Shown here one piece after another: positions 30,153 through 60,079 of a stretch of DNA of 64,000 nucleotides; within the stretch, counting starts at the first letter, position 1, and every line of letters begins with the position of its first letter. The DNA is taken from contig JAFWOT010000014.1 of the NCBI GenBank assembly GCA_017509785.1, forward strand, positions 124,001 to 188,000, given 5' to 3'. Position numbers and translations under genes: made by a program. A model generated the notes under the pieces. It did no database searches. It was not told the DNA's origin and was given only the letters and a program-made list of their open reading frames with translations. The stretch comes from Clostridia bacterium (lineage in GTDB: Bacteria > Bacillota > Clostridia > Christensenellales > CAG-138).

Positions 30153-30153
30153 A

Positions 30154-30570: not shown

Positions 30571-30580
30571 GGCTGCTCCT

Positions 30581-32671
30581 CTATTCGATGCCGTTTTCTT
30601 TTAGTTTTTTAACCACATCCATTATTGTTTTAATCTGTTTCTTTGTTAGCTGCGTATACTGCAAGTTGCAGTATTTGATTGCATCCGTTAATGCAAATAC
30701 ATCAGCATTATTAAGTACATACTGTGCCTGTCCTCTTTCAACTAAAGACGACCAGTACTCAGCTCCTTTGTTAAAGATCTCTATCTCATTCATGATTCCG
30801 TTATCAAAAGCCTGATCCTTTTTTGCCGCTATTTTTTCAACTGTCTTCTCGCTTGGGGATATCAGGATTTCTCTAAGCTCATCCGATATCGAGTACGGAA
30901 CCTTTGAAATAATATCCCAGCATTCGGTTTTTTTGCAGTATGTTTCAACGTTTGCCGTTGAACGGTAAGGATCGTTTATTCTGTCAAATACGATTTTACC
31001 TATTTGGGCTATATCCTCGTCAAATTCTATTGGGACTCTCTGAAGGTCCCAGATCTGTCTGTAGTTTATCTCTTTATGTATTGCTTTTGCAGACAACACG
31101 AGTTTAGAAAACGTATATGCAACAATCTGGGGACGGTATGCCCTTTTTTCTTGGTACCACTGTTGGCTAGAAATCATCGTTTCGATTTTGGAGAACAGGA
31201 TCTTTTTTCCAATAAGCTCTTTATAGAAAAGCTCATTAAAAACTTCATTACTCTTATTCCACTGTTTTTCCATATCGTTATGGAAATGGGCAGCATTTAC
31301 CTCTCCGCCCCAAGAAACATAGTGCGGTAGCATGTTTGCTGCATTAATGTATTTAGCCAAATCCGTAAGCGTAAAACGCATACTCTTGGGCCTTGTAAGT
31401 TTATAATTGTTTGCCTGTGCTTTTGTCATTTGCATAATAGGCTGTTCATATTGTCCGCGGGTACGTTCAAAGAACCAAAGCTGCTGAACTAAACTTCCGC
31501 TTGCAAGAGGTGCATATATCTTTCTGGAGAAGTCCTCCATTCGTACATAGAACGGATGGCTAGAGTTCAAATCTGCGGTCTTAACCTTATTCTGGCTGTT
31601 CGCATATTTAGCTATATTCCTTATTAATTCAGGATCAGAATCTTTTAAGACGGTCAGCTTCATCTGAACAAAAATGCCCTCTAGGTCTGCATTATTCTTT
31701 ATGTTGGTTGCCGCCAATGTAGCAGTTGTCTGACCTCCGTTTATTATTTGAAGATCGTCAAACGCTGTTATCATGTTGCCGCATATAGGATCCGAAACCA
31801 CGGTTACACCTCTTGCCGTGGTCGATATCCCGTTATTATAAGTAAAGAACCTTGATTTTTCGTTTAGTATGGTCCCACGAATGCCTTTGTTGACAGCCCC
31901 GTTAAACTTAAGGAACGAGCGGACGTTTGATTCAAGAAGCGCAGAGCTATACTTTTTATAGATCTCTGAGAGGAAAGAGCCCGGTACAATGGCCAAATAA
32001 GACTCATATTGGTCGGTTCCAATATCTGCCTTAATACACGGAATCCCTCGGATGCCAAATTCGTTACAATTAATTACAATCTTTTCTTTTTCAAATCCGG
32101 CCAGTTTAGATCTATATATTCCTTCAATATCAAGAACATCAAGCGTCACCTTAAATGTGTGCTCTTTAAAGGTATAATCTGGAAAGTCAAGATTTTTAAC
32201 GCTTTTACTTAGCCTGTTAGTGCTAACTACAAACAGGTGTATGGTATGAATGTCTTTATAATTGTTTCGAATATCTCGTGCAAGCTGTACTGCAGGATCA
32301 GCCTGTTCAGCTGATGCAAAGAACCCCTTTAATGAATTCTCAAAGAAATTCAGCAGAAGCTGAGATTTATTGCCAAGAATCTCATTGGTTATATTCGTGA
32401 TCTCTCCCTCATTATAATCGGCGCAGAGCAAGTCAAGAGCATTTGACGCAAGATCTAAATATGCAGCATCAATATGCATATTCTTATATGCCCTTGTTCC
32501 TTTACTAAAGGAAAAGAAGCACTGACTCATGTCAGTAATGAGAGAGTAATCGTTTTTAAGGATATCTGCAGCATTGTCAATAAACACCTCAACCGGATAC
32601 CGCATAGTGTTTACTGCCTCGGCATTGATATCCTCATTTATATAACTCTCGCGAAACTCAAGGATGTCCAT
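30581..32671 (-). CDS. AIPR-family abortive infection protein
   Basis: 696 residues. The AIPR core (about 230-480) includes GIRGTILNEKSRFFTYNNGI, the signature INGGQTTATLAAT, and IAKYANSQNKVKTADLNSSH. AIPR proteins occur in phage-defence clusters, including the Mza system. The likely role is an effector or DNA-targeting subunit working with the upstream DUF4420, Z1 and GHKL proteins. The gene follows DUF4420 by three bases and precedes vsr by 10. Confidence 0.88.
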   Translation of the reverse strand: MDILEFRESYINEDINAEAVNTMRYPVEVFIDNAADILKNDYSLITDMSQCFFSFSKGTRAYKNMHIDAAYLDLASNALDLLCADYNEGEITNITNEILGNKSQLLLNFFENSLKGFFASAEQADPAVQLARDIRNNYKDIHTIHLFVVSTNRLSKSVKNLDFPDYTFKEHTFKVTLDVLDIEGIYRSKLAGFEKEKIVINCNEFGIRGIPCIKADIGTDQYESYLAIVPGSFLSEIYKKYSSALLESNVRSFLKFNGAVNKGIRGTILNEKSRFFTYNNGISTTARGVTVVSDPICGNMITAFDDLQIINGGQTTATLAATNIKNNADLEGIFVQMKLTVLKDSDPELIRNIAKYANSQNKVKTADLNSSHPFYVRMEDFSRKIYAPLASGSLVQQLWFFERTRGQYEQPIMQMTKAQANNYKLTRPKSMRFTLTDLAKYINAANMLPHYVSWGGEVNAAHFHNDMEKQWNKSNEVFNELFYKELIGKKILFSKIETMISSQQWYQEKRAYRPQIVAYTFSKLVLSAKAIHKEINYRQIWDLQRVPIEFDEDIAQIGKIVFDRINDPYRSTANVETYCKKTECWDIISKVPYSISDELREILISPSEKTVEKIAAKKDQAFDNGIMNEIEIFNKGAEYWSSLVERGQAQYVLNNADVFALTDAIKYCNLQYTQLTKKQIKTIMDVVKKLKENGIE

Positions 32672-32674
32672 TTT

Positions 32675-33607
32675 TTACTCCTCTATAAATCTGTAAATGG
32701 ATGCCACACTTAACACATAGTTCACATCCGTAATTTCCGGAAACGGTACATTATCTACTGTGATTCTAGGGAACTCTTCTGCAACCGAATATGATTTAAT
32801 CGACTTTATATCGAACCTTGAGTTAATCTCCTTTCCGTATACATCGATCCCCATGCCTTGGATTTTTCTTATGAAATCATTTTCTATACTCTCACTGGAT
32901 ACCGATAGCAAGATTTCTTTAACTAAATCAATGATCGCTAAGCTTGTCCCTCCTGCCTCAGGAGATACGGCCTCAGCACGGACCACAACTAAATGTCCGT
33001 TATTTGGAGAAGATAGTTGAGCGAGTGAAGAGATGCGAATACTGTCTGCATTTGCTCCTATAGTTTTTACCTCATACCATGTGTCTCCCACGGTGAAGTC
33101 TTTACTTTGCATTTTGGGTCCGCCCCATGCTTGTATCGCCGTGTCAACGCCATACTTTTTAGAAATAATCTCCTTTAGCACTGCAAGCTCACCGAAAATA
33201 CCCATAAGCTTTTCCTTTGAAATATCTCCACCGGAGACCTTTTGGAAAAGCTTTTTCCATGTGATAAATCGTCTCCTCAGCATATTTAGTGCCAAGGACT
33301 CGTCGCGGATTTCAACAATAGAGTCAATCATGTTTTCGCAAAAGCTGAAGTATGCTTCTTTTAGTTCCCCGTTAAGAAGGTCGAAAGAAGTCCAATAGGA
33401 ATCTTTACCTTCTCTCCCCTGGACTACATGGAGTATTGATGTGGACTCCATCACAGGGCAGTCGCCTTTCGACATGAAAGAAAGACGAAGATTCCCTTCG
33501 AAACTAAATCCAAAGAAAACTTCTATACACGAATCCACCGGGACTTTCTTTTGATTACCATGCTGCTGATCGCAAAACTTGTTATAAATCTCGCTAAATT
33601 CAATCAT
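32675..33607 (-). CDS. PD-(D/E)XK nuclease-like protein (DUF4420)
   Basis: 310 residues. Nuclease-type core around GIFGELAVLKEIISKKYG and SKDFTVGDTWYEVKTIG (Asp, then E-x-K). DUF4420 is a recurrent component next to Z1 and AIPR genes. The start is uncertain: MIEFSEI at 33607 has GAAGGAG 12 bases upstream and overlaps the Z1 gene by eight bases; earlier candidates at 33634 (ATG) and 33646 (TTG) would overlap more. Confidence 0.8.
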   Translation of the reverse strand: MIEFSEIYNKFCDQQHGNQKKVPVDSCIEVFFGFSFEGNLRLSFMSKGDCPVMESTSILHVVQGREGKDSYWTSFDLLNGELKEAYFSFCENMIDSIVEIRDESLALNMLRRRFITWKKLFQKVSGGDISKEKLMGIFGELAVLKEIISKKYGVDTAIQAWGGPKMQSKDFTVGDTWYEVKTIGANADSIRISSLAQLSSPNNGHLVVVRAEAVSPEAGGTSLAIIDLVKEILLSVSSESIENDFIRKIQGMGIDVYGKEINSRFDIKSIKSYSVAEEFPRITVDNVPFPEITDVNYVLSVASIYRFIEE

Positions 33608-36386
33608 CTGTGTCTTCAACTCCTTCGTCTTCATCGTCAGTTTCAATTCCTTTTGTCATCTGATCTATCATCACAGCATTTGCTCTATATGTCACCATAA
33701 CTTTTGTTTCTGTATCGGGAAATGCATATGAGAACGCAAGTAGCACTTCCCCTTCAAAAGCGGCCTTTGCCTTTGCTTTATAAATCGCTTCATCTTCCGT
33801 ATCTTCTTGACTTACTTCGTTAAGTGCTATGGGAAACACTACCAGAATAGGCGTTTTGCGGTGCTTTAAGTATTCCTTTGCTGATAGTGCTTCTCCTTCT
33901 TTGTACCATAGCCCAGCATTTAACTGTCCCGGATCGAGGACTCGGTTGTTTGATCCACCGATTCGAATAAAATCTGTCTCGCTTCTGGTATGAAAACTAC
34001 GCACGACCGGATAAACGTCCATAAACTGCTTTCCGTCTTTTTGACTTCCGTTTGCAATTACGACGTCCCACCAGGGGTACTTGTCACTATCCTCTGTATA
34101 CTCAGCAAGTCCTGCAGTATTAAATTTTTTGTTTTCTATTGGTATCCGTATATCTTTAAACAGTTGAGCAATGTAATGCTGAGACACATTTTGTGCCATG
34201 TAGTACCGGTGTGAGTTTGGATTACCATCCTTACTCACCCACTTGAATTCGACATTTTTGCAGAATCTTCGGAAAGCCTCAATGTTATGCTTATTCACGG
34301 CAGGATCTTTATCCATTTTCGACGTATCAGCATAGACACCGCTGTAATTGAGACTGCGGACAAAAGTCTCCGTTCCGCGCATTTTGTTTCTGCTTGTTAT
34401 GAGCAACGTTGTTTCAAGAGTGTCGGGGCATTCTTTGATCATAATGCCGAAGTCACTAGGCTTCTTATCGCGCAACTTCATTTCTCCAAATTGCGTTTTT
34501 AAATCCTCCGTGGCGGATAAAACTGCATCAAACTGGTCTATGCTGATTTGTGACAGATAAATACGGCATAAGTCCATATACCTTGGCCTATATCCGAACC
34601 AACGGCACATCTGGAGAAGCGTATCGTATGCCCCGGCATGTCTGCTATAGTAGCTAATCATCAACCCCTCAAGAGTAAGGCCTCTAGAAAGCACCATGCC
34701 TCCGATCGCAATAACCCTAGCTCCTTCATCCTTTTTGTCATCATAGTCAAAGCGTTTTTTACTCCCTGAAGGGTCAAGGTTATTCATTTGTCCATTCCTT
34801 GAGTTGATTACAACTACAATGATTTTTTTGATTTCATCATACAACCCGCTCTGAATCTGTTCCCAAGGGATTGGCCCTTCTGCTTCTTCGCTATTTCCTT
34901 CACGAATGATTTTAAAAAACTCATCTTTAGTGTATAGTTCGTAAAGAGCATTGCAGTAACGGTTCTTGATGAATTCGGCAACCGGCATATCACTTAACTG
35001 CTCAATATCATTTTTGAGCTTTTCAAGATACTCATTTACTCTCTCCCAAATAAGAGCCTGCGTATCGTTATACCTTGTGATATTAATCATCATGCTACGG
35101 TGCTTTAGTCCCTGTCCGCGTAGTGTTCTTATAACATTGCAGATAACAAACGAATTTATAGCCTCAACCAAGCTTTTTGCCATGGCAGGGTATTGCACAT
35201 ATTTATCGTGAACGACCGGAAGAAAACTATCTTCGCTCTCAGAAATTAATCTTACATACCTAGAACGGGTTCCGTCAGCCGGAAAGACAAGCCTTCCGCC
35301 AAAATATGTGCTCGGTGCATGAAGCTGAGCTATAAAATCGCTCGGGAATAAGTCCAAATAGCTTTCGTCGTCTTTGGGGTTGATAAAAATATTTGCAAAC
35401 GGCGTTGCTGTATACCCAACATACGATGCAATCGGGAATTTGTTGAAAATATCACGAATGCATCGATTAATGGCCGTAGGCTTGTCAGGATCTTTTGCTG
35501 TCGAGATAGAAGCATTATCTGCCTCGTCATCAATAATCAATATGCTTTTGCAATCCAAACCTTTATCGCTCAATTCATATTGAAGTCTTTCTGCTACACT
35601 TTCCAAAACGCTCTTAACCTTCTTAACGACCAATACGACCGGTTTATTTATGTCTGCAATTGCAACATTATAATTCTTTTGAACAAATTTTTTGAAATCA
35701 TTAATCTGATTTGTGAACGGCACAGCAAAGTGTTCGTTGGTATTTAGACCAACACCTATAAATTCAATTGTATTGCCGATAGTTTCACTTCTTGCGCCAA
35801 TCACTCCGCTGTCTGTACGTTTTTGTGTCTGTTCGCGAAGAGAATTGGTGGTTCCCGCTAAAAGAACAACTATGCGGTACCCGTAGTCATAGGCCATATT
35901 AATTAAACCAAGATAGTTGGCTGTTTTTCCCGATTGAACATCTCCAACAACTAGGCCCTTTTTCTTTTCTGACAAAGCTGTAGTCTTTGGGTTTGCGCAT
36001 CTTGCCAGAATCTGTTCACAAGTAGTTTCAATATTAGTTATTACCTTAGGTTCAAAACCGTTGTTTGACAGATAGAGCTTGTATCTGTCAAAAAACGGAT
36101 GTTGAATACGTTCTTTTTCCTTGTATAGCCAATACTTTGCTTCTCGGTCGATATCAATGAACTCAGGATCGTATGTTATAATACCGACTTCGCTCTCATA
36201 ACGGCTGACAACTGCTTTTACAATAGGATTGTGTTCTTCCGTTGCAACCAAATTGGGAAGCACTATCGGAAATAGAGCTTTCGCAGTCTGAACGACATCG
36301 TTGTGCGGAATCCGTTTACCCTGAATCGCACCGTAAAGCACAGTATAAAGCGTATTAACTGCTGCTTGATATTTCTCAGTTGTCAT
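33600..36386 (-). CDS. Z1-domain ATPase/endonuclease-associated protein
   Basis: 928 residues. It has a P-loop near residue 160 (LVVGDVQSGKTANYLGLI), a Walker B-like SILIIDDEADNAS, then the Z1 domain (VIAIGGMVLSRGLTLEGLMI, LLQMCRWFGYRPRYMDLCRI). These are helicase-like motifs ending in the Z1-specific part. Z1 proteins are core parts of defence systems containing GHKL ATPases and AIPR. The start at 36386 follows AGGAGG; the longer frame to 36500 lies inside the GHKL gene. Overlap with that gene is 11 bases. Confidence 0.9.
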   Translation of the reverse strand: MTTEKYQAAVNTLYTVLYGAIQGKRIPHNDVVQTAKALFPIVLPNLVATEEHNPIVKAVVSRYESEVGIITYDPEFIDIDREAKYWLYKEKERIQHPFFDRYKLYLSNNGFEPKVITNIETTCEQILARCANPKTTALSEKKKGLVVGDVQSGKTANYLGLINMAYDYGYRIVVLLAGTTNSLREQTQKRTDSGVIGARSETIGNTIEFIGVGLNTNEHFAVPFTNQINDFKKFVQKNYNVAIADINKPVVLVVKKVKSVLESVAERLQYELSDKGLDCKSILIIDDEADNASISTAKDPDKPTAINRCIRDIFNKFPIASYVGYTATPFANIFINPKDDESYLDLFPSDFIAQLHAPSTYFGGRLVFPADGTRSRYVRLISESEDSFLPVVHDKYVQYPAMAKSLVEAINSFVICNVIRTLRGQGLKHRSMMINITRYNDTQALIWERVNEYLEKLKNDIEQLSDMPVAEFIKNRYCNALYELYTKDEFFKIIREGNSEEAEGPIPWEQIQSGLYDEIKKIIVVVINSRNGQMNNLDPSGSKKRFDYDDKKDEGARVIAIGGMVLSRGLTLEGLMISYYSRHAGAYDTLLQMCRWFGYRPRYMDLCRIYLSQISIDQFDAVLSATEDLKTQFGEMKLRDKKPSDFGIMIKECPDTLETTLLITSRNKMRGTETFVRSLNYSGVYADTSKMDKDPAVNKHNIEAFRRFCKNVEFKWVSKDGNPNSHRYYMAQNVSQHYIAQLFKDIRIPIENKKFNTAGLAEYTEDSDKYPWWDVVIANGSQKDGKQFMDVYPVVRSFHTRSETDFIRIGGSNNRVLDPGQLNAGLWYKEGEALSAKEYLKHRKTPILVVFPIALNEVSQEDTEDEAIYKAKAKAAFEGEVLLAFSYAFPDTETKVMVTYRANAVMIDQMTKGIETDDEDEGVEDTDD

Positions 36387-37839
36387 TTCCAAAAATCCTC
36401 CTCTTAATCTCTTCTTTCCTGGGTAATAGTCTCTGGTAGTTTTCTGCCATGAAAATGTTTTCGAAGACACTCTTTCTCGTCTCGCTATCAAAGAAGGCAA
36501 TGATGGCTTCTATCTCGCTTATCAGTCGCTCGTCTTCGACGTCTTCTCCCGAATTAACAATGGTCAATGCATCCATATTATCGTTATTAATACGATACTT
36601 AGGAAGATAGCTTTCAATTTGCGACAGCACTATTTCCAACAATTCTTTCTCGCTCTCGCCAAGAGCATTATTGAGTGCAACTATAGCGGGCATTTCTCTG
36701 TTTATCTGATACTTAATCTGGCCTTCGTGCAAATTAACACGGTCCCAAACTTGGACTTCCGGCATCTGTTCCTTTACGCCCGGGAAACGCGTCGTCCTTC
36801 TGCTTCTAATAACCGAATCCTCAACGGCAGCTTTTATCTGGTTCTTTATGATATCAGGAATTCTTGCAGAGGACTTTTTAACATCTAAAGTCCATACTTC
36901 ATCTAAGGACGATGGTATGTCGACCTGAATCCTGGCCAGCTTATTCAGCTCACTGCGTATGCCCATCCTCATCCAATTGCCCCAAGAGATAAGCCTTTTG
37001 TTCCGATAGATGTAAAACCCCTGCTCGTCATATATGCTCTTCGGATTGCCTAGCAGTGCTTTTTCCTCGGATGTCAACGTGTTTGCAAACGGCAAAGTGT
37101 ACGGTGTTACCGTAATAATAGATTCTCCGATACTGATCCTTGTTGTTCTGCCCGTTTGCTGACGTCCGAATGAACCGAGCAAAAACGGATCTCTTCGCTC
37201 GATTCGTTTGTTATTGAAGTAGATTTCTAGATCATCGTAGAACCTATGAAAAACGAATTCTACATGTTTTTTTGCTTCGGCAACAGCGCTCCTAAAGCTA
37301 TCTTCGAAACTCTTGGAGCTGGATTCAATTTTATCAAACTTTTCCCAAACCACTAAAGTTCCGCTATCGTACTCGCGCAGTTCATCAATATATGGCAGTT
37401 CGGCGATCTCGTTTTTATCCAGCACTGATAGGACGAGCTTGTTGCTGTTTTCTATCTCATCTAAGTCAAATGACATTGCATTGATTTTGCCGTATTTTTT
37501 ACTAGCTACGATAAACTCTCTACACTGAGAAAGAGAAGCAGATTTTAAGCCAAGACCAAACCTGCCGAGCTCAAGCTCGCAGTCCTCTTTGCCCGTTCTA
37601 TCTGATCCTGGAAGCATTGCGTTGTTAAGTTCAGCAAAACTCATTCCGTTTCCGTTATCAAGAATGCAGAAAAACGGAGTGGCTGCAAGAGGATCGGAAT
37701 AGACTCTGACAGTATTCGCTTGGGCCGAGACACTGTTGTCGATAATATCCGCAACAGCAGTTGAAAAGTTATACCCGATAGCCCTTAGCCCCGTAAGCAA
37801 CGCTTTTGCCGGGAACTGTTTTTCAACTAATTCACCCAT
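36376..37839 (-). CDS. GHKL (MORC/MutL-like) ATPase
   Basis: 487 residues. The Bergerat ATP-binding fold is clear: DIIDNSVSA (N box), ILDNGNGMSFAEL (G1) and LGRFGLGLKSASLSQ (G2). The region after ~200 contains a transducer-like domain, and the C-terminus is helical. GHKL proteins close like a gate on ATP binding. In this cluster it pairs with Z1, DUF4420 and AIPR as in the Mza system (MutL, Z1, DUF, AIPR), known to protect against phage. Confidence 0.9.
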   Translation of the reverse strand: MGELVEKQFPAKALLTGLRAIGYNFSTAVADIIDNSVSAQANTVRVYSDPLAATPFFCILDNGNGMSFAELNNAMLPGSDRTGKEDCELELGRFGLGLKSASLSQCREFIVASKKYGKINAMSFDLDEIENSNKLVLSVLDKNEIAELPYIDELREYDSGTLVVWEKFDKIESSSKSFEDSFRSAVAEAKKHVEFVFHRFYDDLEIYFNNKRIERRDPFLLGSFGRQQTGRTTRISIGESIITVTPYTLPFANTLTSEEKALLGNPKSIYDEQGFYIYRNKRLISWGNWMRMGIRSELNKLARIQVDIPSSLDEVWTLDVKKSSARIPDIIKNQIKAAVEDSVIRSRRTTRFPGVKEQMPEVQVWDRVNLHEGQIKYQINREMPAIVALNNALGESEKELLEIVLSQIESYLPKYRINNDNMDALTIVNSGEDVEDERLISEIEAIIAFFDSETRKSVFENIFMAENYQRLLPRKEEIKRRIFGNDN

Positions 37840-37919
37840 TGTTGTTACCTTTCCAAACAGTACAAACCTGCTTTTTTGTTTATCACTCTGCCTAGGTTCG
37901 TTACATCTTCTTCTGAAAG

Positions 37920-39056
37920 TTATTTATACTTATCACCGAACATTGAATCAAATACAGCTTCCAGCACGTTCACAACAATAGAGTTGCCAATTAACTTATT
38001 AAGCTTGCGGTAGCTGTAACCAAGAGAGGATGCTTTTTCGTATTCATCCGCAGTAAACCCCATTAACAGGAAAGCTTCACGAAGTGTTAGCCTTCGGTAA
38101 GTTTTCCCCTTCGGCCCGCTATATTCAAACAAAGCTGCAGTATGCGTCCGATCCATATTGCACGTTATTGTTCTAATTATTGTATTATTGTTTATCTCTT
38201 TTCCGTTAATCTCCCACATTACATCTCGCGAGGGTGTTTTGTTTAGCTGGGCGATGTTTGCTTCCCGCTTGTAAGTTGGATTTTGATAATCATCCATTAT
38301 AAAATCGTGGATGTTGTATTTTCGTTCTCCCTTTTTCGCCTCTATTTTATCCTTTACATTTAGAACCTCTCCCAGATGGCTTACTATGAAAGCTCTTTCG
38401 CGATCCTGAGGCACTCCAAAATCTAAGGCATTAAGAATCATGCAATCGCTATTTGAATACCCAATTGAGGTTAAAAACCCCAACCATTGCTCAAGATCTT
38501 CTTTGTTCTTATCTGCTTTAATTGTCTTCACGTTCTCAAGCAACAAATACTCAGGCAATCTGTTTAGCTCTGCAAGCTCTTTTAAAATCCGTTCAATCTC
38601 CCAAAGCAATCCGGAGTGAGTGCCGGAACCTTTTTTCATGCCTTTTCCAAGTCCGCCTGTTGAAAGGTCCTGGCAAGGAAAACTGTAAACAAGCAAATCC
38701 GTTAATGGCATATCCGCGCCCTTTAATTCAGTTATAGACCCGAAGTTATTTGCTTTTTTATTTGCTCTGTATAAATCGCGTTTTTGATCTTCGGATAAAA
38801 TTTTTAGGTTAGTCGGCCTAATAGACGTAGCACTAAACGTAAACTGATTAAGGTATTCTTCGACGAGTTTAATATCCTGGGGAACATCCACTTCGACATT
38901 CTCACAGTGAATAGCTGCATAACACTCAATTGCGTCAATAAACCAGTCGCTAATTCCTACAATTTCATAATTGATCCCAAGCCGCTCTAAAGCTGAGGCC
39001 TGAGCCCCAATACCAGCAAATGCCTCAAAGACACGTAGTTTTTTCGGTTCACTCAT
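37920..39056 (-). CDS. DNA (cytosine-5) methyltransferase
   Basis: 378 residues. Motif I is EAFAGIGAQA (11-20), the catalytic motif IV is FPCQDLS (Cys128), motif VI is LLENV (about 172-176), QDRERAF is motif VIII, and motif X is LIGNSIVVNVLEAVF. The target recognition region (about 230-320) does not reveal the site. It marks host DNA so that partners can tell self from non-self. It is encoded between the WYL regulator and the GHKL ATPase on the same strand. Confidence 0.95.
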   Translation of the reverse strand: MSEPKKLRVFEAFAGIGAQASALERLGINYEIVGISDWFIDAIECYAAIHCENVEVDVPQDIKLVEEYLNQFTFSATSIRPTNLKILSEDQKRDLYRANKKANNFGSITELKGADMPLTDLLVYSFPCQDLSTGGLGKGMKKGSGTHSGLLWEIERILKELAELNRLPEYLLLENVKTIKADKNKEDLEQWLGFLTSIGYSNSDCMILNALDFGVPQDRERAFIVSHLGEVLNVKDKIEAKKGERKYNIHDFIMDDYQNPTYKREANIAQLNKTPSRDVMWEINGKEINNNTIIRTITCNMDRTHTAALFEYSGPKGKTYRRLTLREAFLLMGFTADEYEKASSLGYSYRKLNKLIGNSIVVNVLEAVFDSMFGDKYK

Positions 39057-39094: not shown

Positions 39095-40078
39095 TTACTC
39101 AGTCCCTAACTTGGCATTGAAAAGCGATATAAACTTTTCTTTAACCTTCCTCGGCCCTTCTATCATCATCCTCCCTTCAAACTGGAACACCCAACCGAAG
39201 AAGACATTGCTGACCTGGACGGGCACGCGGGCGCGAAGGGTGGTATCGTCGACGCGCTCGATCTTGGTGTCCTCGCCGAATTTGTCGTAGACGCAGCCGA
39301 GGAGGGACTGATCAAACCGCAGGGTCACCTGGGAAGTGGGGCCGCTGTGCATTTTGAACGCGGCCTTCACGTGGCTGTCGACGTCGGCGCGCATCTTGAG
39401 GGCTGTCTCGCAGGCGTCGGCTTCCTCGGCCTCGACGGTATCCATACGGTCGATGCGGTAGGTGGTCTTGGCGCGGTGCTTAGTGCTGTACGCGAGGAGG
39501 TAGTAATTATCCTCGTGCATTACCATCGCGATCGGATCGACGACATAACGGGACTTATCCTTTCTGAACACGCGCTCGCCGTTTTCATCGAGATCGTAAT
39601 AGAAAAATGAAACCTTCTTCTTTTTCAAAAGAGCGGTTTCGATGTTGAGAACGGCATAATAAACCTGTTCGTTTGTGTGCTTGCGCGTATTGAAGGCGAC
39701 GAGGTTGCGGGTCAGGAGCTCCGCGCGGTTATTGCCGCCGAGAGCGGCGAGCTTTTCGATGAGCTCGTCGGACTTCTTATCCGTTATGAAGGTCGCCGCC
39801 TGTACGGCGTCGATCAGTATCTTGAGCTCGGACGTGCTGAACCCGCGCTCCGCGACGTAATACGCCTTGTTATGCCCGACGAATCGGCTCATGACCTCAT
39901 ACCCGCACTCGTTGAGCATATCGATATCCATAGTGACCGTCCTGCGGTCACAGCGAATGCCCATCTCCTCAAGCCTTTTGACGATCTCGTTCGTCGTCAA
40001 AGGATGCGCTTCGTCGGTTTCCCGGCTCAGCATCTCCCACAGCTTCAGAAGCTTGATCTTTAAAAGAGTCGTGGTCAT
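39095..40078 (-). CDS. WYL-domain transcriptional regulator (copy 2)
   Basis: 327 residues with an N-terminal winged helix (NEIVKRLEEMGIRCDRRTVTMDIDMLNECGYEV), a WYL domain (KKVSFFYYDLDENGERVF, RYVVDPIAMVMHEDNYYLLA) and a WCX-type tail. The start at 40078 follows GAAGGAG. It lies 38 bases upstream of the methyltransferase on the same strand, so it is the probable first gene and regulator of the defence operon. It is GC-rich like copy 1 but the genes it precedes are AT-rich. Confidence 0.9.
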   Translation of the reverse strand: MTTTLLKIKLLKLWEMLSRETDEAHPLTTNEIVKRLEEMGIRCDRRTVTMDIDMLNECGYEVMSRFVGHNKAYYVAERGFSTSELKILIDAVQAATFITDKKSDELIEKLAALGGNNRAELLTRNLVAFNTRKHTNEQVYYAVLNIETALLKKKKVSFFYYDLDENGERVFRKDKSRYVVDPIAMVMHEDNYYLLAYSTKHRAKTTYRIDRMDTVEAEEADACETALKMRADVDSHVKAAFKMHSGPTSQVTLRFDQSLLGCVYDKFGEDTKIERVDDTTLRARVPVQVSNVFFGWVFQFEGRMMIEGPRKVKEKFISLFNAKLGTE

Positions 40079-40114
40079 GGCGTACTCCTTCGAGGATAGA
40101 ATAATCCAAAGGAT

Positions 40115-40143
40115 ATTATACCATATCGCCATGCCGGATTCAA
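40115..40143 (-). promoter_or_regulatory. promoter of the Mza-like defence operon
   Basis: Minus-strand TTGAAT, 17-base spacer, TATAAT, about 35 bases before the WYL start. Confidence 0.75.
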
Positions 40144-40325
40144 GGATAAAGAGTCGATTCTTGTTGCTCCTTCGGAATACTTATGACATTTCAACATTAA
40201 TTCGGCATGAGAATGACTGCATTTCAAAGCAAGCCTCTGCCGGGTTCGCTCAACTTTCACCGCTTCATGAACTCTCACGGTTTGCCTGTTAAGAAAATAA
40301 AATGTAATTTTTATTGTATTTGGTG

Positions 40326-40354
40326 TTGCGTTTCCCTGCAGGTCGTGCTATAAT
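40326..40354 (+). promoter_or_regulatory. conserved promoter in end block copy 1
   Basis: TTGCGT, 17-base spacer, TATAAT, kept unchanged in copy 2 (60504-60532). It points toward the attachment core. Confidence 0.75.
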
Positions 40355-40525
40355 GCAGGTGTCGGCGGGAGGGATCCTGCCGGAAAGCCCGCGGCGGCCC
40401 CCGAAAATGCGATTGCATATCGATGGCGAGGGTCATGGGGCGGTTCAATACGTACAAAATATGCAAAATGTGCATCATGTGCACCGGGTGATAAATTTCC
40501 TTAGCAAATTTGTTAAGGTTGGCTC

Positions 40526-40539
40526 GAGTGGGAATGATG
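40526..40539 (+). other. attachment core between islands 1 and 2
   Basis: GAGTGGGAATGATG, identical to the guaA 3' end at 9590-9603. Confidence 0.72.
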
Positions 40540-40556
40540 CAGTATAAACCGGATAG

Positions 40557-40583
40557 AAAAGCTCCCAAATTCGGGAGCTTTTT
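40557..40583 (+). terminator. terminator at the left end of island 2
   Basis: AAAAGCTCCC pairs with GGGAGCTTTT around a short loop, then T. It stops the RNA started in the preceding island end block. Confidence 0.88.
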
Positions 40584-42766: not shown

Positions 42767-43822
42767 TTATTTTAGAAATTCCCCCGCCAACTCGTCAAGC
42801 TGTTTTGCGATATGCTTAAAATCCGTGTTGAGATCGAGTGTTCTTGCACCGATGCGGTTGCCGCCCATTACAAAAACGCAGTCGGGCGTTATCGGCTCGT
42901 CGGTCTTGGCATACAGGAGCATGCCGGAGACGTTGCCCGTGTTCTCTTTGTCCTGATTCTTCACGTATGTGAATATCTGATAGACGTTCGCGGAGTGGAG
43001 CGTGAGCTTATCGTACTGTTTCTGCAGGGAGCTCCCATAGTACTTTGCATCGATGATCAGCACTTTTTCACCGTTTCGCAGGAATACGTCCGTCTGCATA
43101 GAGGGCAGGAAGCGGATCATTCGCTCGTCGGTATCCTCCGTCAGATCCCACTTGACCTGTGCCGAACGCGCCTCCGAAAGATAGGCGTGATGCTTGCGGT
43201 AGTATTCGAGGATGAACTTCTCATAAAGCCTTGCCATATGCTCGTCGGATAAGGCGAGCATTTTGTATTTTCCGGATTCGGTGGTCTGCAGCATGCCGTC
43301 AAGCACAAAGAAGCAGATATTCATCAGCAGCTCGTAGCTCCGGTTGTTCCGCCTGTAATTCAATCGGCTCCACTGGATGGAGGAAGGTTCGATGAGCTCG
43401 ATCCCGTCGAAGAATACAAACAGCTTTTTAAGCTGTGCTTTGCGTTCCGAACGCACTCCCTCATCCGCGACGAGATAGTGCATAGTCGTTTTCAGTATTT
43501 GATTGAAGAGATTGTTTTCGGAGAGCTCGTCGAATTCACAGGCGAGCTTTTGCTCCCTTGCGAGCCTCGCGCGGATCGTGCCGTTGATATCCAGCTTGCC
43601 GCGAAGCACGTTCAGCGTTTCGTTTTTCGTAACGTATTCACGATAAAGGCCCTGCTTCAGCTGCTGTGCGACGCCCTTTGAAAGCACCGCGGCGAACAGA
43701 TCCTGCGCGTTTTCAAAGCGCTCCGAAGCGACCTCCTCGTAATTCCCGCGCCGGAGCGCCCGGAACGCGTAGGAGAGCATGTAGTAGATATTCTTTATGA
43801 ATATGCTCTTATCCTTAATCAT
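42767..43822 (-). CDS. mcrC: McrC-type nuclease subunit
   Basis: 351 residues. N-terminal McrC region (FIKNIYYMLSYAFRALRRGN, LRGKLDINGTIR) and a C-terminal PD-(D/E)XK nuclease (MQTDVFLRNGEKVLIIDAKY). With McrB it forms a GTP-driven complex that cuts DNA with modified bases. It overlaps mcrB by eight bases and is the last gene of the long minus-strand run. Confidence 0.92.
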   Translation of the reverse strand: MIKDKSIFIKNIYYMLSYAFRALRRGNYEEVASERFENAQDLFAAVLSKGVAQQLKQGLYREYVTKNETLNVLRGKLDINGTIRARLAREQKLACEFDELSENNLFNQILKTTMHYLVADEGVRSERKAQLKKLFVFFDGIELIEPSSIQWSRLNYRRNNRSYELLMNICFFVLDGMLQTTESGKYKMLALSDEHMARLYEKFILEYYRKHHAYLSEARSAQVKWDLTEDTDERMIRFLPSMQTDVFLRNGEKVLIIDAKYYGSSLQKQYDKLTLHSANVYQIFTYVKNQDKENTGNVSGMLLYAKTDEPITPDCVFVMGGNRIGARTLDLNTDFKHIAKQLDELAGEFLK

Positions 43823-46664
43823 CGAATACGCTGTTCAGCTCTTTCTCCCATCTTGAAAGCTTTTCGGGATCATCAAACCAATACTCGCCGAGCATGGGCA
43901 GTATGTCGAATTCGATCACGGAATGAAGCCATTCATTCTCATTGCCGTCTGGCTCCCTGCCGCAGAAATAGCTGTGGCCGATACGGAAGCCTCGCCCAAG
44001 TGCGCTGTCCTCGGCGATGGCTTTGTTGAGCTGACGGATCTTCTCGATCAACGCGTTGAAGGTCTCGCTTCCGAAGGAGTTCTGATAGCTCATGAATCCC
44101 TCGGAGGTGAACCCGGGCTCGATCTCAAAGAAGCTGAACCTCCTGCGCAGCGCGTAATCGATCATGGCAAGGCTTCGGTCGGCGGTATTCATCATGCCTA
44201 TGAGATAGAGGTTCTTGGGAACGGAGAACGGCATCCCGCTGTATGCGAGAGTCGCTTTTGTTCCGCGATAGTCCTTTTCGATGAGCATGAGCAGCTCGCC
44301 GAATATCTTGCTCATGTTGCCGCGGTTGATCTCGTCGATAATGAAGAAGTAATCACGCCCGGGATCGTTTGACGCGCGTTGGCAGAAGCGGTAGAATATG
44401 CCGTCGGTCAGCTTGAAGCCTTCGCCGTCCGGACGATAGCCCTGGATGAAATCCTCATATGAATAATTTTGATGGAACTGGATGAGCTCGATCCTGCTCT
44501 CGTCCTTTTCGCCCATCATGGCATAGGCGAGCCGCCTTGCAGTGAAGGTCTTGCCGACGCCGGGAGCGCCCTGCAAGATGACGTTTTTCTTGTTCCTGAG
44601 CAGCGCTTCAAGCACATCGTAACGTTCAGAAGACATATAGACCGAGGAAAGGAAATCCTCCTTCGTGTATCGGGCAATCTCGTTATCGGCCTGCCGCAGG
44701 GGATTTTCCTCACGGATGAGATCCATTATGAAATCGAATTCGCCTTTTGTCAGCTTGAAAAGGCTCCCGTTCTGCTGAGTCAGGAATTCCATCTTTTCAA
44801 GCTCCGGGCAGCTCTTAATGGTCTGGAGGTCGATAGGCGAAGCTAAACCCTCGGTTTTCGCAAACCTCAGCACCTCGCCGTCGTTTTCCTTTGTGATGCG
44901 GGCAAGAGCTACGATCTTCTTAACGGGATTCGCTTCGTAACCTATCACGATATCTCCCGCCTGGGCATCGAGGAAATTCTGATAGATTCGGCGCTTGTTG
45001 CCATTTTCATTTACAAGGGTATAGCTCTGCTCCTCGCCCACGCCGATATCTGCAAAGCTCCAGATCTTGGGGCTGGCGGTAAGCCACCAATAGCCGTGGG
45101 GCTCGTCCGCATTTTCGAAAAGCTCCGGGAGCGTCATGCCGAAGTACGGTTTCAGTATCTCCTTCTCAAACAGCGGAGCATCATCCACCTTTACGCAGGT
45201 GGAATTGAAATCCGGAGTCCACCACTTTTTTTCTCCGGTATAGGGGGAGGTATCCTTTGACACGGCAATCACGCGATACTCCCGTTCAAACCAGCCATTG
45301 CCTATCTCCGGATTGGGAACCGCTTCATTGCCAACAAACTGTGCCAAATACCTTATGCTGTTTCCATAGCATAAGTAGAAATAGTCCCCATCTTTAACGG
45401 AGTTCATAAAGCTCTCGCCTTGCGGTATCTTTGAAGACGCTATAGCTCGGGTTTCGCTGTGCATTGCGGCAACATTGCGTTTTTCAAGCTTGATTCGGTT
45501 TTCTTCGGATACCGAACCGTGGCTAATCTTCCAGATGGCGGGAGTGTTGTCTGCATACAGCCGAACGTTGGACAGATCCACCCTGTCAAGCGCTTCCAAA
45601 AGCTCATCCCTTAGTCTCCAAATATAGGATCCCTCATCTGTGTTCTCTGCGCCGCGACCCACAAACAGCACTGTCCACCATCTTGTGCTGTTTTCGCTTC
45701 TTATCATAACTGGACAACCCGTCTTTTTTGCAACACGCCTTGCAAGAGAAGTTGCACCATTTCTATAAAAATTGAAATCCTCCCCATATTTTACAGCCAG
45801 CTGCTTACATGTGGCCTGTCCGCCGTAATCCTTTAGGCGCTTCACGATTTCAAGGCTACTCTCAGTGAAAACCTCGGTATCATTAAGCAGATCCACCCAT
45901 GTCTCAACAGATATTCCGGGATCGTATCCTCCTTTAGTCGGCCACCATTCCTCTTCGCTTCCGGTATCATTCTTTTTCTTCTCATTCACATAAAAGCGGG
46001 TCAGATAAAACCCGATATCCATTGTTGCCGTCTTCAGCTCCGGGTCGGGATAGCATCCCGGAGTGAGCTCTTTTTCAATCATATCACGAATGGACGGATC
46101 CGCTTTCACCGCCTCGCAGATTTCGTCGTACATTCGAAAGCCGTGTATAATATTATCGGTAGAACCGGTCCTACGGGGCGCGTAATCAGAAGCCAGCTCC
46201 TTTGCAACGGCGCGGAATACCTCATACTTATAGACATAGTACTTATCGGGGTAGCGAAGCCAAAGATACGTGCTCACGGGATTGATGCCCTGATAATGGC
46301 TCCGCCACGACTCGGCTCCGTATTTCTGGCGCATGTTTTCAGAGGCGGCAATAAACTCGTCCACCCTCTCGGCAAGATCGCGCTTTTCATCATACAGCGC
46401 GCGGAACATCGCACGCGTCGCTTCGTCGTCCGCGTTGGCAAACTCCAGTATCATAGCGCGGGGATAGGCATAGCCCGAAGCAAGCAGGTTATAGGTCTTT
46501 GCAGTCGCTTCCTTGAACATTTCACCGAAGTTATCAGCTTCGATATCCCAATGATCCTGGAAGTGCTTCACAGCACCCCATTTATACAATTCATCCTTGC
46601 AATGCTTCGGGAAATACTCCTTGTAGCCCTCGAGCACCGGGACAAGCTTTGTTAAATCGATCAT
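43815..46664 (-). CDS. mcrB: McrB-type GTPase with EVE domain
   Basis: 949 residues. The N-terminal ~300 residues are unrecognised and rich in Trp and Tyr. A winged-helix-like stretch is near 275-325. An EVE domain is near 510-620 (YWWLTASPKIWSFADIGVGE, AGDIVIGYEANPVKKIVALA), probably reading modified bases. The C-terminal AAA+ module has GAPGVGKT, FFIIDEINRGNMSKIFGELL and MMNTADRS. The start follows GGAGG, ten bases after the end of hsdR. EVE-McrB fusions are known type IV restriction forms. Confidence 0.93.
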   Translation of the reverse strand: MIDLTKLVPVLEGYKEYFPKHCKDELYKWGAVKHFQDHWDIEADNFGEMFKEATAKTYNLLASGYAYPRAMILEFANADDEATRAMFRALYDEKRDLAERVDEFIAASENMRQKYGAESWRSHYQGINPVSTYLWLRYPDKYYVYKYEVFRAVAKELASDYAPRRTGSTDNIIHGFRMYDEICEAVKADPSIRDMIEKELTPGCYPDPELKTATMDIGFYLTRFYVNEKKKNDTGSEEEWWPTKGGYDPGISVETWVDLLNDTEVFTESSLEIVKRLKDYGGQATCKQLAVKYGEDFNFYRNGATSLARRVAKKTGCPVMIRSENSTRWWTVLFVGRGAENTDEGSYIWRLRDELLEALDRVDLSNVRLYADNTPAIWKISHGSVSEENRIKLEKRNVAAMHSETRAIASSKIPQGESFMNSVKDGDYFYLCYGNSIRYLAQFVGNEAVPNPEIGNGWFEREYRVIAVSKDTSPYTGEKKWWTPDFNSTCVKVDDAPLFEKEILKPYFGMTLPELFENADEPHGYWWLTASPKIWSFADIGVGEEQSYTLVNENGNKRRIYQNFLDAQAGDIVIGYEANPVKKIVALARITKENDGEVLRFAKTEGLASPIDLQTIKSCPELEKMEFLTQQNGSLFKLTKGEFDFIMDLIREENPLRQADNEIARYTKEDFLSSVYMSSERYDVLEALLRNKKNVILQGAPGVGKTFTARRLAYAMMGEKDESRIELIQFHQNYSYEDFIQGYRPDGEGFKLTDGIFYRFCQRASNDPGRDYFFIIDEINRGNMSKIFGELLMLIEKDYRGTKATLAYSGMPFSVPKNLYLIGMMNTADRSLAMIDYALRRRFSFFEIEPGFTSEGFMSYQNSFGSETFNALIEKIRQLNKAIAEDSALGRGFRIGHSYFCGREPDGNENEWLHSVIEFDILPMLGEYWFDDPEKLSRWEKELNSVFDD

Positions 46665-46674
46665 AGTATCCTCC

Positions 46675-49600
46675 TTACGCCGCGATCGCGTTGGTGTTTA
46701 TGGTTTCTATCGTCCGCCGGATGCCCGCCCAAACGGAAAGGTCGGTGAAGATATCGACAATGCTGCCGAGATCGGTAAACGGCGGCTCCTGCAAAACGGA
46801 CAGGTCGCGGAGCATGCCGTTATGGACGATGTACTCTACTATCTGATTGACGAAGTATATCTGTCTGGAATCGAGACTCGTATCGTTCAGGTATTCGGCA
46901 AACGCGGCCTTGGCGGCTGCCATATCCATACCGACTATCTCTCGCACGAATTCGCCGAGGGGTTTCTTGCCATACTCCGCCTCATACTCCTCCTTCGTGC
47001 CGACCTCGCTCCAAAGGATGCCCTCAAGCACCTTTATATCGTTCTCCGTCATCGGGATGTTGCCGCGGAGCTTTTGTATCACCTCGTTATCCTGGTGCTG
47101 ACGGACGTAATACTCCGCCTTTGCCTTATAATTCTTGAGGTCGTCGTTCTCGAGCTCGGACTCGTTCCAGTCGATCGTGAGTATCTCATCGTCGAAATCG
47201 GTGTCGTAGCGCAGCTTCTTCACGGGGATGTACTTAATGAGGTCGCGCAGGTTCTCGCGGATGTTCTCGAGATCGAAAATATCGGCGTTGTCGAGGTAAT
47301 CGGTGTGCAGAATTTTATCGATCAGTTCCGACTGCGCCATTATCTCCGGGATATTCGCCACGCCGGCGATCCCTTCGACCTTCTTCAAAAGGTCGCGGCG
47401 CGCTCTGTTGTACGTCCTGCCCGCGAGCAGAGCAAGCTCGATACCGTAAACGAGCCAGTCGAAGCGCAGCGCCTTCGGATCGTCCGGATCCGGCATAATG
47501 AGCGGTGCGAGCTGATCGGCTATGAGCAGCGTATCCTCATAGGTGATCGTCCTGTAATTCTCGGGATCGGAGTAAAGGTCGACGTATTTCATGTGCTGCT
47601 TCACGGCGAAGTTCTCGCGGTTGAGCTCGCGCACCTTCCTCACCATATCGTCAACGAGCGCGGCTCGGAACGCCTTCAGCTCGTCCGTCTGATAATTGAT
47701 ATCCTGCAGCTTAAATACAAGCTGTGCTTTCAGGTAGAATATCGCCCCCTGCAGCGCGATCATGTTCGCGGTAGGCCGCCCCTTGTTCATGCGGAAGAAC
47801 TCAAAGTTGCCGCAAAAATCGAATATGTAAAACTTTTCCTTATCCTTCCCATCTATGAGCCCGGGGCAGAGGCGCGTTCCGCGGCCTATCATCTGCCAGA
47901 ACTTCGCCTTGCTCATCACCTTTTTGAAGAAGACGAGATTCAGCACCTCCGGCACGTCTATGCCGGTGTCGAGCATATCGACCGAAATGGCGATCTGCGG
48001 GAGCTTTTTCGGGTCGGAGAACTCGTCTATGGCGCTCTGAGCGTAGGTCATGTAGTTGTCGATGACCTTCGCATAGCCGGTAAGGTGTGGGTATTCCTTG
48101 CCGAATACCTCCAGTATCTTCTCCGCGTGAGCATGGTTCTTGGCAAATATGATCGTCTTGCCTATCCTGGAGCCGTAATCTATTTTGAGACCGTTCGCCA
48201 TCAGCACGTTCAGCACCTCGCGGATGGTATCCTCGTTGAATATCCATTCGTTCAGCGCAGAGGAGCCGATCGCCTCCGGAAGTTCGCCGTTCTCGTCGGT
48301 GAAGGTATCCTCGTATGCCTGCTTGTCCTCTTCGGAGAGCTCGTCATAAACTATGCCCTGCTGAATGAATTTGAGCGTCGTCTCCACAGAGAGGAAATCC
48401 ACGAGGAACCCGTCAGCGACCGCCTGCGCGAGCTCATAGCCATAGGTCGGCACTCCGCTTTCGAGCTCGAATATCTCATATGTGTTCTTGTCGATCTCAT
48501 CCTTCGGCGTGGCTGTGAGGCCCACGAGCGGCGCGTCGAAGTAGTTGAATATGTCGCGGTATTTGTTATAGATCGAGCGGTGCGCCTCGTCGCAGATCAC
48601 GAGGTCGAAATGCCCGCAGGTAAAGAGCCTCCCTTCGTCGTCCTCTGCAGTATCGATAACATTCATCATGGTCTGGTAGGTCGAGAACACGCAGTGTGCG
48701 GTGTAATTGTCCTTTTCGACACAGAGGTTCGTCACGGAAAGATCGGGCAGCAGGTTCACGAAGGAGCGCTTCGCCTGGGTGACGAGCGACGTGCGGTCGG
48801 CAAGGAAGAGTATGTTCTTCACCCAGCCGTGCTGCAGGAGCACGTCGCAGAGGGCGATGACCGTGCGCGTCTTGCCGGAGCCCGTCGCCATAACGAGCAG
48901 CGCCTTCCTGCGGTTCTTTTCGCCGAAGGCGTCGCACACGGCCTTTATCGCGCCCTCCTGATAGTAGCGCCCGGCGATATCGGGGTTCACAACGACGTTG
49001 TTTAGGCTCGTCCGCATTGAGCGAAGGTTGAACAGCTTTTCGATATCGCGTTTCGACCATATCGCCGCCGTGCGTCTTTCGGGGTAATTGCCGTCCTCGA
49101 TGCGCGTATCAAAGCCGTTCGTCAGGAATATGACCGGGCGGCGGTGGTATTTCTTTTCGAGGATGTCGGCGTAGAGCTTTGCCTGCTGGCGGCCCTTCGA
49201 AACGTCTACACAGGTGCGCTTGGCCTCGATTACCGCGAGCGCGCGCCCGTCGTCACCGTAGAGCACGTAATCCGCGTAACCCACGCCGGATTCGTTCGGC
49301 ATGCCGTAAAGCTCCACCTCGTTGAGCCAGTTCTTGCCCTCCGTCCAACCGGCGTCCTCAAGCATGGAATCGATATAGAGCTTGCGCGTCTTGTATTCGG
49401 AAAGCTCCAGGGGCTTGGGCACGTAGTTTTGCTGCTGCGCTTCGCGGCGGCTCGTCAGCTCCTCGCGAAGCGCCCTGTTCTCCTCCATGAGCGCGGCAAG
49501 GTCAATGCCTTCCTCGCCTTCCTCCTTGCCTTCCCCTCGAGGGGAAGGTGTCGCCGCAGGTGACGGATGAGGTGTAGACTCCGCAGCCGACGGATGAGGC

Positions 49601-50028
49601 GCCTCCTCCTTCAAAAAGCTCTCGTCAAAGGTGGGCTCAACGTAATCGTCCCCGTAACAGCAGGCGACGAAATCCATGAAATAGAAGAGGTTTCTGATGC
49701 AGAGCTCCGCCATCTCGGGAGTGATCTTCTTGCCGGAGTGCGCGGCGTTGTTCGCCGTGCGGCGGATGAAGTCCATCCTGCGCCAGACGTCCGTGCCCAC
49801 GATATCGTGGAAGCTTTCTTCCCCCATCAGCGAATTGAGATTATCCTGATACGGCAGGCTGAGCTCCCCGTCAACAGAGTACATCCATTTTACAGCAAAC
49901 TCCATCGCCCTGCGGCAGTTTAATACGCAGGAGCCGAGCTCCGTGTGATAAAGCTTTTCCACAGAGCACGCGATCTCCGAGAAGGAGGAGAATTGCGGGT
50001 CGCGGGTGAGGAAGGAGAAGTTGGTCAT
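46675..50028 (-). CDS. hsdR: type I restriction enzyme R subunit
   Basis: 1,117 residues. An N-terminal DUF4145-like domain (about 1-110), a linker with an inserted palindromic repeat (about 140-175), an HSDR_N nuclease (DYVLYGDDGRALAVIEAKRT), an SF2 helicase (MATGSGKTRT, CDEAHRS, GLTATP) and an EcoEI-type C-terminal domain. It translocates and cleaves DNA lacking the host methylation. The ATG at 50028 follows AGGTGA; a GTG at 50037 is less likely. 37 bases from the upstream membrane protein gene. Confidence 0.94.
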   Translation of the reverse strand: MTNFSFLTRDPQFSSFSEIACSVEKLYHTELGSCVLNCRRAMEFAVKWMYSVDGELSLPYQDNLNSLMGEESFHDIVGTDVWRRMDFIRRTANNAAHSGKKITPEMAELCIRNLFYFMDFVACCYGDDYVEPTFDESFLKEEAPHPSAAESTPHPSPAATPSPRGEGKEEGEEGIDLAALMEENRALREELTSRREAQQQNYVPKPLELSEYKTRKLYIDSMLEDAGWTEGKNWLNEVELYGMPNESGVGYADYVLYGDDGRALAVIEAKRTCVDVSKGRQQAKLYADILEKKYHRRPVIFLTNGFDTRIEDGNYPERRTAAIWSKRDIEKLFNLRSMRTSLNNVVVNPDIAGRYYQEGAIKAVCDAFGEKNRRKALLVMATGSGKTRTVIALCDVLLQHGWVKNILFLADRTSLVTQAKRSFVNLLPDLSVTNLCVEKDNYTAHCVFSTYQTMMNVIDTAEDDEGRLFTCGHFDLVICDEAHRSIYNKYRDIFNYFDAPLVGLTATPKDEIDKNTYEIFELESGVPTYGYELAQAVADGFLVDFLSVETTLKFIQQGIVYDELSEEDKQAYEDTFTDENGELPEAIGSSALNEWIFNEDTIREVLNVLMANGLKIDYGSRIGKTIIFAKNHAHAEKILEVFGKEYPHLTGYAKVIDNYMTYAQSAIDEFSDPKKLPQIAISVDMLDTGIDVPEVLNLVFFKKVMSKAKFWQMIGRGTRLCPGLIDGKDKEKFYIFDFCGNFEFFRMNKGRPTANMIALQGAIFYLKAQLVFKLQDINYQTDELKAFRAALVDDMVRKVRELNRENFAVKQHMKYVDLYSDPENYRTITYEDTLLIADQLAPLIMPDPDDPKALRFDWLVYGIELALLAGRTYNRARRDLLKKVEGIAGVANIPEIMAQSELIDKILHTDYLDNADIFDLENIRENLRDLIKYIPVKKLRYDTDFDDEILTIDWNESELENDDLKNYKAKAEYYVRQHQDNEVIQKLRGNIPMTENDIKVLEGILWSEVGTKEEYEAEYGKKPLGEFVREIVGMDMAAAKAAFAEYLNDTSLDSRQIYFVNQIVEYIVHNGMLRDLSVLQEPPFTDLGSIVDIFTDLSVWAGIRRTIETINTNAIAA
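49529..49548. repeat. palindromic repeat inserted in hsdR
   Basis: CCTTCCCCTCGAGGGGAAGG, a perfect 20-base palindrome. Next to it (49549-49600) are two copies of a GACGGATGAGG unit. All are translated in frame as a Pro/Ser/Gly/Glu-rich linker of HsdR. Confidence 0.8.
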
Positions 50029-50065
50029 GGTGGTCACCTCGTTATCACATACTTTAATTTACCAT

Positions 50066-50977
50066 TCAGAGCATCTTGCCGTTAGTTCTATAAACCTCTT
50101 TTGCGCATGATGTTGTGTGATGGACATACTGAGGATATCCATAACTATCTGAATATTCTCTGTATTCATCTGCAGAGATAACTCTGAATTCAAACTCTTC
50201 AGCAATTTCACGGCATGTTATTTTAATTATTTCTTTATCTCCTAAACTAGTATCGAAATCTTTTTTTACAGCGTCAAACAGGTTATGCCATTTTATATCA
50301 TGTTGCATTGTTTTTAGAACATCCAACTCTCTTTTATACTGTACTGATGCACTCGAAATACAAGTATGCCATTTTTGAAGCTCTTCTTCATCTGTATCAT
50401 TCGGCATAAGAATAAAAGATTGTTTGCAAAGGAAGTATCCTCCACAAGTATTCTTATACGTGGTCATTATTTTTATTCTTGGTAGGCATTCAGCAGAATT
50501 AGCCCTTATAGAGTCATAGAAAAAGGATACATTATCTCCTGCGATCATTTCGTGATACGATGCTTTACCTCCATCCGCTGTAACTACATTGTTCCTATTA
50601 GATAATGTCAACATCGAATAATGATCTCCATCCTTTTCAACCTTCAACTTAGCTACAGTATCGACACATACTGCAGTTGCATTTGAGTAATTGATTATTT
50701 CTCCTTCACAATAGTATCTTGATTGAAAAGAATATCTGTCAAAAGGAGGTGCGTAGAAAAACCGTGGCCTTTCAATTCTAAAATTAATATCTTTAACTAC
50801 AAGCACTGGCTGTAAAGAGAGTTGATGTTCTGAACGCATTTCTTCAATTTGACGTTCATTAGATTCTAGCTGTTTTTTGTTCTGGCGTAGTGTTATTATA
50901 ACTGTAATGACAGATATTGCAGCAAGAACAAACGATAACACAGCTACTATGATATTGATTATTGATTCAGGATTCAT
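50066..50977 (-). CDS. membrane-anchored protein within the type I operon
   Basis: 303 residues: one N-terminal transmembrane helix (IINIIVAVLSFVLAAISVIT), a short coiled coil (RQNKKQLESNERQIEEMRSE) and a ~250-residue strand-rich soluble domain, probably cytoplasmic. It is AT-rich compared with hsdR and hsdM. No family recognised. The start at 50977 follows AAGGAGG. Its place between hsdS and hsdR suggests an accessory sensor or effector, but this could also be passenger DNA. Confidence 0.6.
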   Translation of the reverse strand: MNPESIINIIVAVLSFVLAAISVITVIITLRQNKKQLESNERQIEEMRSEHQLSLQPVLVVKDINFRIERPRFFYAPPFDRYSFQSRYYCEGEIINYSNATAVCVDTVAKLKVEKDGDHYSMLTLSNRNNVVTADGGKASYHEMIAGDNVSFFYDSIRANSAECLPRIKIMTTYKNTCGGYFLCKQSFILMPNDTDEEELQKWHTCISSASVQYKRELDVLKTMQHDIKWHNLFDAVKKDFDTSLGDKEIIKITCREIAEEFEFRVISADEYREYSDSYGYPQYVHHTTSCAKEVYRTNGKML

Positions 50978-51135
50978 GATATTTCCTCCTTTTTTATATT
51001 CATTTATCAAATGATTGATTACGCAAAAAACATGGTTGCATTCACCGATCCAGATCGCTACAGATTGTCACTATTCTTTTAACTATCGTTCAGCCTACCA
51101 CTAGAAACTGGTAATCCAAGCATACACATACTCCT

Positions 51136-52296: not shown

Positions 52297-52335
52297 CGTT
52301 GTTCCTCCACAAATCCGAATTTGCATTTCCCCTTT

Positions 52336-59315: not shown

Positions 59316-59346
59316 CTGTTATTGCCTCCGGTTATCCCACAACATT

Positions 59347-60069: not shown

Positions 60070-60079
60070 GTTAACTCCT

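Follow-up and report, generated by a model that had tools for sequence, protein, structure and literature searches.

The question raised by this locus is what a block of about 280 bases, found twice in a 64,000-nucleotide stretch of clostridial DNA (hereafter the window), might encode and why it is carried there. The two copies, A (40257..40541, plus strand) and B (60438..60709, plus strand), align pairwise at 89% identity (88.7% over 283 columns, E 1e-100), and the home assembly (2.4 Mb, 30 contigs) contains no other copy. Block A, a discrete conserved unit whose limits are the edges of homology in comparisons with B and with a related copy, G103, consists of 65 nt of upstream sequence, a promoter and a predicted RNA body. 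Block B, which has an 11-nt deletion and many private changes, may be decaying. Direct reading confirms the original prediction that both copies have the same promoter, TTGCGT-17-TATAAT, and this promoter is conserved in homologues. In A (40326..40354, plus strand) the -35 hexamer TTGCGT lies at 40326-40331 and the -10 hexamer TATAAT at 40349-40354, with a 17-nt spacer and the bases TGC, thus a TG, preceding the -10. In B (60504..60532, plus strand) the hexamers stand at 60504-60509 and 60527-60532, again with a 17-nt spacer and TGC before the -10.

With a start assumed 7 nt past the -10, the predicted RNA of A would run from promoter to terminator over about 223 nt (40361..40583, plus strand), and that of B over about 208 nt (60539..60746, plus strand). 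A ends in an intrinsic-terminator-like hairpin, GCTCCC(AAATTC)GGGAGC-TTTTT (40561..40583, plus strand), and B in GTCC(AATAGAATTAT)GGAC-TTTTT (60723-60746), whose stem is unrelated to that of A. None of 100 dinucleotide shuffles of either tail reached the score of its hairpin; a generic terminator scanner called neither of them. A and B share no sequence past their 3' block edges, and the rest of the window contains no mate of either hairpin sequence. The original prediction had noted such terminators, with unrelated stems at the same position, and had placed them in the next element. The unrelated stems and the common place in A and B stand; we assign the hairpins to the block's own unit instead, and not all homologues obey the same-position rule.

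A nucleotide search of relatives, followed by a sequence model run over 103 genomes of the family, yielded five further copies (G011, G006, G103, G105 and G102), which brings the total to seven copies in six genomes and two genera, all rumen Clostridia of one family. When about 85,000 species genomes were scanned with a degenerate pattern, five records matching these five genomes came up and none besides, and a rebuilt model searched against 396 genomes of the order and 391 of the class (about 790) gave only noise beyond the known copies, with no further convincing member. No copy was found in IMG/VR or among phages and plasmids, and neither the window nor the homologues matched any Rfam 15 family at the block, in gathering or E-value mode. 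Weak model matches in G025, G056, G049, G008 and G105:C31 were rejected, as their coordinates span mainly the promoter part; those of G025 and G105:C31, read directly, were judged to be promoters of other genes. A separate observation concerns the G102 copy: immediately upstream of it lies a pemK RNA motif (L066 100-179) that scores over the Rfam gathering cut-off, and this motif is an orphan, with no long toxin frame directly 3' of it.

Comparison of the seven copies shows which parts of the block are kept. The -10 and the spacer are present in all seven, save for one -10 base in G006; in G102 the -35 is not conserved. When A is compared with G006, identity is 76% for the RNA (with 41 gap columns in addition), 70% for the neighbouring intergenic region and 91.5% for the adjoining gene for a WYL regulator, so that the RNA is not clearly better conserved than the adjoining intergenic DNA. 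The argument for purifying selection therefore comes mainly from the deeper split, that between the A type and the type represented by G105 and G102. The latter two are 82% identical to each other from the promoter spacer to the 3' part of the RNA, and their flanks have no BLAST match. Across the deepest split the flanks are unalignable, and the promoter and parts of the transcript are conserved: the -10, the spacer (TGCARGWCNTGCTATAAT) and the 5' hairpin segment are kept, the two types share the motif GATGGCG..RGGTC.TGGGGCGG....ATACGT.CA, and A, G105 and G102 all have a 3' half of exactly 106 nt, in which the two types are 51-57% identical. Terminators are more variable. Those of A, B and G102 are strong and beat all shuffles, have unrelated stems, and occupy one position in A and B and a nearby one in G102; that of G105 is strong and displaced by about 160 nt, G006 has a larger hairpin displaced by about 35 nt (read by eye), that of G011 is degenerate, and G103 has none.

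In five of the five readable left flanks (A, B, G011, G006 and G105), a raw count, the block is divergent from a defence cluster, a different one each time. The sample is small, since these are five contexts, A and B lie in one island, and the left flank of G102 is off its contig. The first gene divergent from RNA A encodes a WYL regulator (39095..40132, minus strand) with 90-91% identity to the genes that open two type I-C cas loci and with a promoter of its own (TTGAAT-17-TATAAT, 40143-40115, minus strand). Behind it lies a defence operon (28854..39056, minus strand) encoding a C5 methylase, MzaB, MzaC, MzaD, MzaE, Vsr and a methyl-directed restriction enzyme. The cluster divergent from RNA B (42767..60093, minus strand) comprises McrC/McrB-like proteins, HsdR, HsdS, HsdM, Fic, a GajB-like UvrD helicase and others; this helicase (window 56499-59315) is split into two reading frames of 674 and 198 aa, and is probably a frameshifted or decayed gene. 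The divergent neighbours are PDC-M33A/B for the G011 copy and, for that of G006, a WYL gene with 91.5% DNA identity to that of A, followed by cas3, csd1, cas7 and further genes in a type I-C arrangement. The G105 copy is divergent from a Schlafen-like gene with Cas9, Cas1, Cas2 and Csn2 (type II-A). The block thus also occurs in some copies without a WYL gene, and it was not found upstream of relatives' WYL genes at 66% identity or less. This head-to-head placement with defence operons is context that the original prediction had missed.

The home genome also contains a type I-C locus to the right of the window (G000:C10, about 190.8-199.7 kb; L030 3313-12190), with 43 repeats. It carries the WYL gene seen at A and G006 and retains the block's initial bases, and the RNA is missing. 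WYL, cas7 and cas1 are retained; cas5, the helicase part of Cas3 and the first 139 residues of Csd1 are missing, as if through one internal deletion. Elsewhere in the window, two direct repeats of about 330 nt, about 80% identical and 7.7 kb apart (19572-19907 and 27273-27607), enclose a module with another WYL regulator (23191-24234) and DUF2130, and the right repeat abuts the end of the Mza operon.

We then considered what the product of the block could be. The 11-nt indel between A and B breaks the small frames, in line with the original prediction that these are disrupted between copies, and indels of 1, 11, 18 and 20 nt occur among the copies. Substitutions per codon phase are flat in every comparison (5/5/5, 10/11/12, 20/16/13, 13/16/17, 17/21/14 and 8/9/7), and thus give no coding signature; no frame with synonymous drift, the pattern that the original prediction had named as telling against an RNA, emerged from the comparisons of homologues. 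Covariation analysis, also proposed there, was applied to the seven sequences: the predicted 5' hairpin is 93.5% paired, one pair is changed on both sides, and covariation is in no excess over shuffles, the covariation term of RNAalifold being almost nil. Folding z-scores are modest when the terminator is excluded. Taken from the sequence comparisons, the product is more likely RNA than protein. A short secreted or regulatory peptide, encoded by a frame of 46 to about 53 codons in A, G011 and G103 with B and G006 as pseudogenes, strikes us as improbable: the frame GHGAVQYV...SSGN of A does equal in length the open frame of G105 and G102, but the synonymous excess is missing in all comparisons, the start codons of the A type differ from those of the G105 and G102 copies, and no Shine-Dalgarno sequence was seen at a proper distance. 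Still less probable is that the block is an untranslated leader or attenuator of a same-strand downstream gene (the radical SAM gene at 40630, for example). Past the T-tract of A, such a gene does begin after 47 nt; the radical SAM gene, however, has its own promoter-like site (40606-40634), and in B, G006, G105 and G102 the next gene runs convergently, so the block is not its leader there. The copies at the heads of a type I-C operon and of a II-A locus might recall an RNA toxin-antitoxin guard of CRISPR-Cas of the CreTA kind, a reading we regard as the least probable of all. Local alignment of the block to CRISPR repeats scored no higher than shuffles, so that no repeat-like segment above chance was found, although strongly degenerate repeats could escape this test, and none of the spacers of three arrays targets the block. 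Moreover, other copies head non-CRISPR systems, and the home genome, whose assembly is 94% complete, keeps two copies although cas5 and the Cas3 helicase were not found at its one detected type I-C locus and its only Csd1 gene is truncated. A guard of this type is unlikely because no repeat-like parts were found, because of the Cas9 and non-CRISPR neighbours, and because of this persistence in a genome whose only type I-C locus found is broken. A tracrRNA of the II-A locus was also tried and rejected: block A matched the 36-nt II-A repeat no better than shuffles in either orientation, the G105 copy was checked by eye, and homologues occur without Cas9.

The edges of the block bear on two further readings. 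Its left edge falls at 40257-40260 (A/B and A/G103 comparisons) and its right edge at 40535-40544 (A/B, A/G011 and A/G103 comparisons); flanks swap at these edges, so that homologues stand beside unrelated flanks, and the block appears to move between defence operons as a discrete piece. In G103, the block is 98% like A and the left flank 97% like B, and on the right the block has fused into the first part of a lipoprotein gene (L091 3374-4790, minus strand), which lacks its start codon when compared with intact relatives; the terminator is lost and the block runs into this truncated gene. Intact homologues of the lipoprotein gene share a contig with a WYL gene (in G003) and with the RNA block (in G105), and this gene region is perhaps a shared insertion neighbourhood. 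The original prediction took the block for the right end of integrative elements, with a transcript that crosses an attachment core and reports or guards the state of integration. That the blocks sit at module boundaries, and that B and G011 have a common right flank with a tandem TTGGCAACCGATYGGCAACA repeat that could represent recombinase arm sites, would agree with it; we nevertheless consider it very improbable. The motif shared at the 3' edge, GGGAATGATGCA, has two sites only, in A and B, and neither a third copy nor a mate of the core was found at any left end with mismatches allowed. The left ends are not shared, a Pfam search of the larger proteins encoded between 40.6 and 60.3 kb identified no integrase (the PF00589 match closest to this interval is outside it, at window 12175-12654), and the genome has a single instance of the tandem TTGGCAACCGATYGGCAACA repeat. 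In G103, the block's right edge is an ordinary within-gene fusion: an empty-site comparison of the lipoprotein gene was tried, and the joint removes the start codon region with no duplicated core. With no integrase found in the interval and no core mate or shared left ends, the attachment core, the excised circle with a transcript across attP and the report of integration state are all unsupported. What survives of the proposed control RNA is a small unit whose product is likelier RNA than protein; its place at an element end is not supported. Independently, the window region 12175-16132, with a tyrosine integrase match, AAA_25, Mob_Pre and TnpV, looks like an integrative mobilisable element, and 55 nt from downstream of TnpV are found again at 60876-60930. 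The strongest competing reading is a neutral one, in which the block is a hitchhiker or recombination joint, a piece of repeated defence-island DNA that is kept since homologous recombination between copies swaps modules, its transcript being incidental. This possibility is a good deal more credible than the readings above, even though we hold it to be unlikely. Flanks that change at the block edges, the mosaic of G103 with its fused right edge, and the fast drift of B and G006, with indels, are all in its favour; it accounts poorly for a promoter, a length and GC-rich motifs kept in two genera despite unalignable flanks, and for terminators with unrelated stems whose position agrees between A and B, and nearly so in G102, which suggest a kept function. 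If the block is neutral, it still marks the exact joints at which rumen bacteria exchange defence modules.

The reading we prefer, to which we give roughly even chances, is that the block is an orphan, independently transcribed small RNA gene or control cassette that travels with defence modules and probably helps to control them. Judged by its sequence, it would be a self-contained unit: transcription would start at a sigma-70-type promoter, yield a non-coding, GC-rich RNA (about 210-230 nt in the window copies) and usually stop at an intrinsic terminator. Within one family of rumen Clostridia it stands head-to-head with anti-phage defence operons. We infer that the block is transcribed and that it serves the divergent operon as a control cassette or through a small regulatory RNA. 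Its effect might come from base pairing, protein titration or simply transcription from the divergent promoter. For copies A and G006, control may be joint with the WYL regulator, whose gene and control region adjoin the block, the WYL protein being a plausible common regulator of the two divergent promoters. A broader version, which we advance with considerable doubt, is that of a shared RNA-based immunity control cassette: one small RNA, sometimes with WYL, would be reused across unrelated systems (type I-C and II-A CRISPR, Mza, PDC-M33 and GajB-like/restriction clusters), coordinating or restraining expression across the island and across species. The apparent link to diverse defence systems is consistent and unexpected over few loci, and the architecture is ordinary. 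Accounts of defence islands usually list their protein genes. An RNA unit common to the heads of several unrelated systems would indicate a layer of control shared between them, above the level of the single system, and would offer a simple handle for testing it.

Orphan intergenic small RNA genes typically have a promoter, a frameless body of 200 nt, a hairpin with a T-tract and, usually, a convergent downstream gene. The block shares the promoter and the frameless body, has a strong hairpin with a T-tract in some copies and, unlike this class generally, is limited to one bacterial family, is tied to defence loci and has no Rfam match. CreTA is likewise a small RNA unit with its own promoter that adjoins cas genes (PMC8501985, PMC9458426), as the block does in some copies; unlike CreTA, the block has no detected repeat-like parts, is also found beside Cas9 and non-CRISPR systems, and is retained in a genome whose only detected type I-C locus is broken. 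Among known systems, those of the BrxR type come closest in function as a precedent for a defence operon under WYL control (PMC9122589). In the parts of that source used here, a WYL regulator of the BrxR/CapW type is the first gene of the defence operon and an upstream cis-acting region matters for its control; these same parts describe a single operon transcript that starts upstream of brxR and do not describe a separate divergent RNA gene (PMC9122589). Copy A resembles this WYL/BrxR/CapW arrangement in having a WYL regulator as the first gene of its defence operon, and departs from BrxR, as presented in those parts, in that the block is a divergent predicted RNA unit that is also found without a WYL gene.
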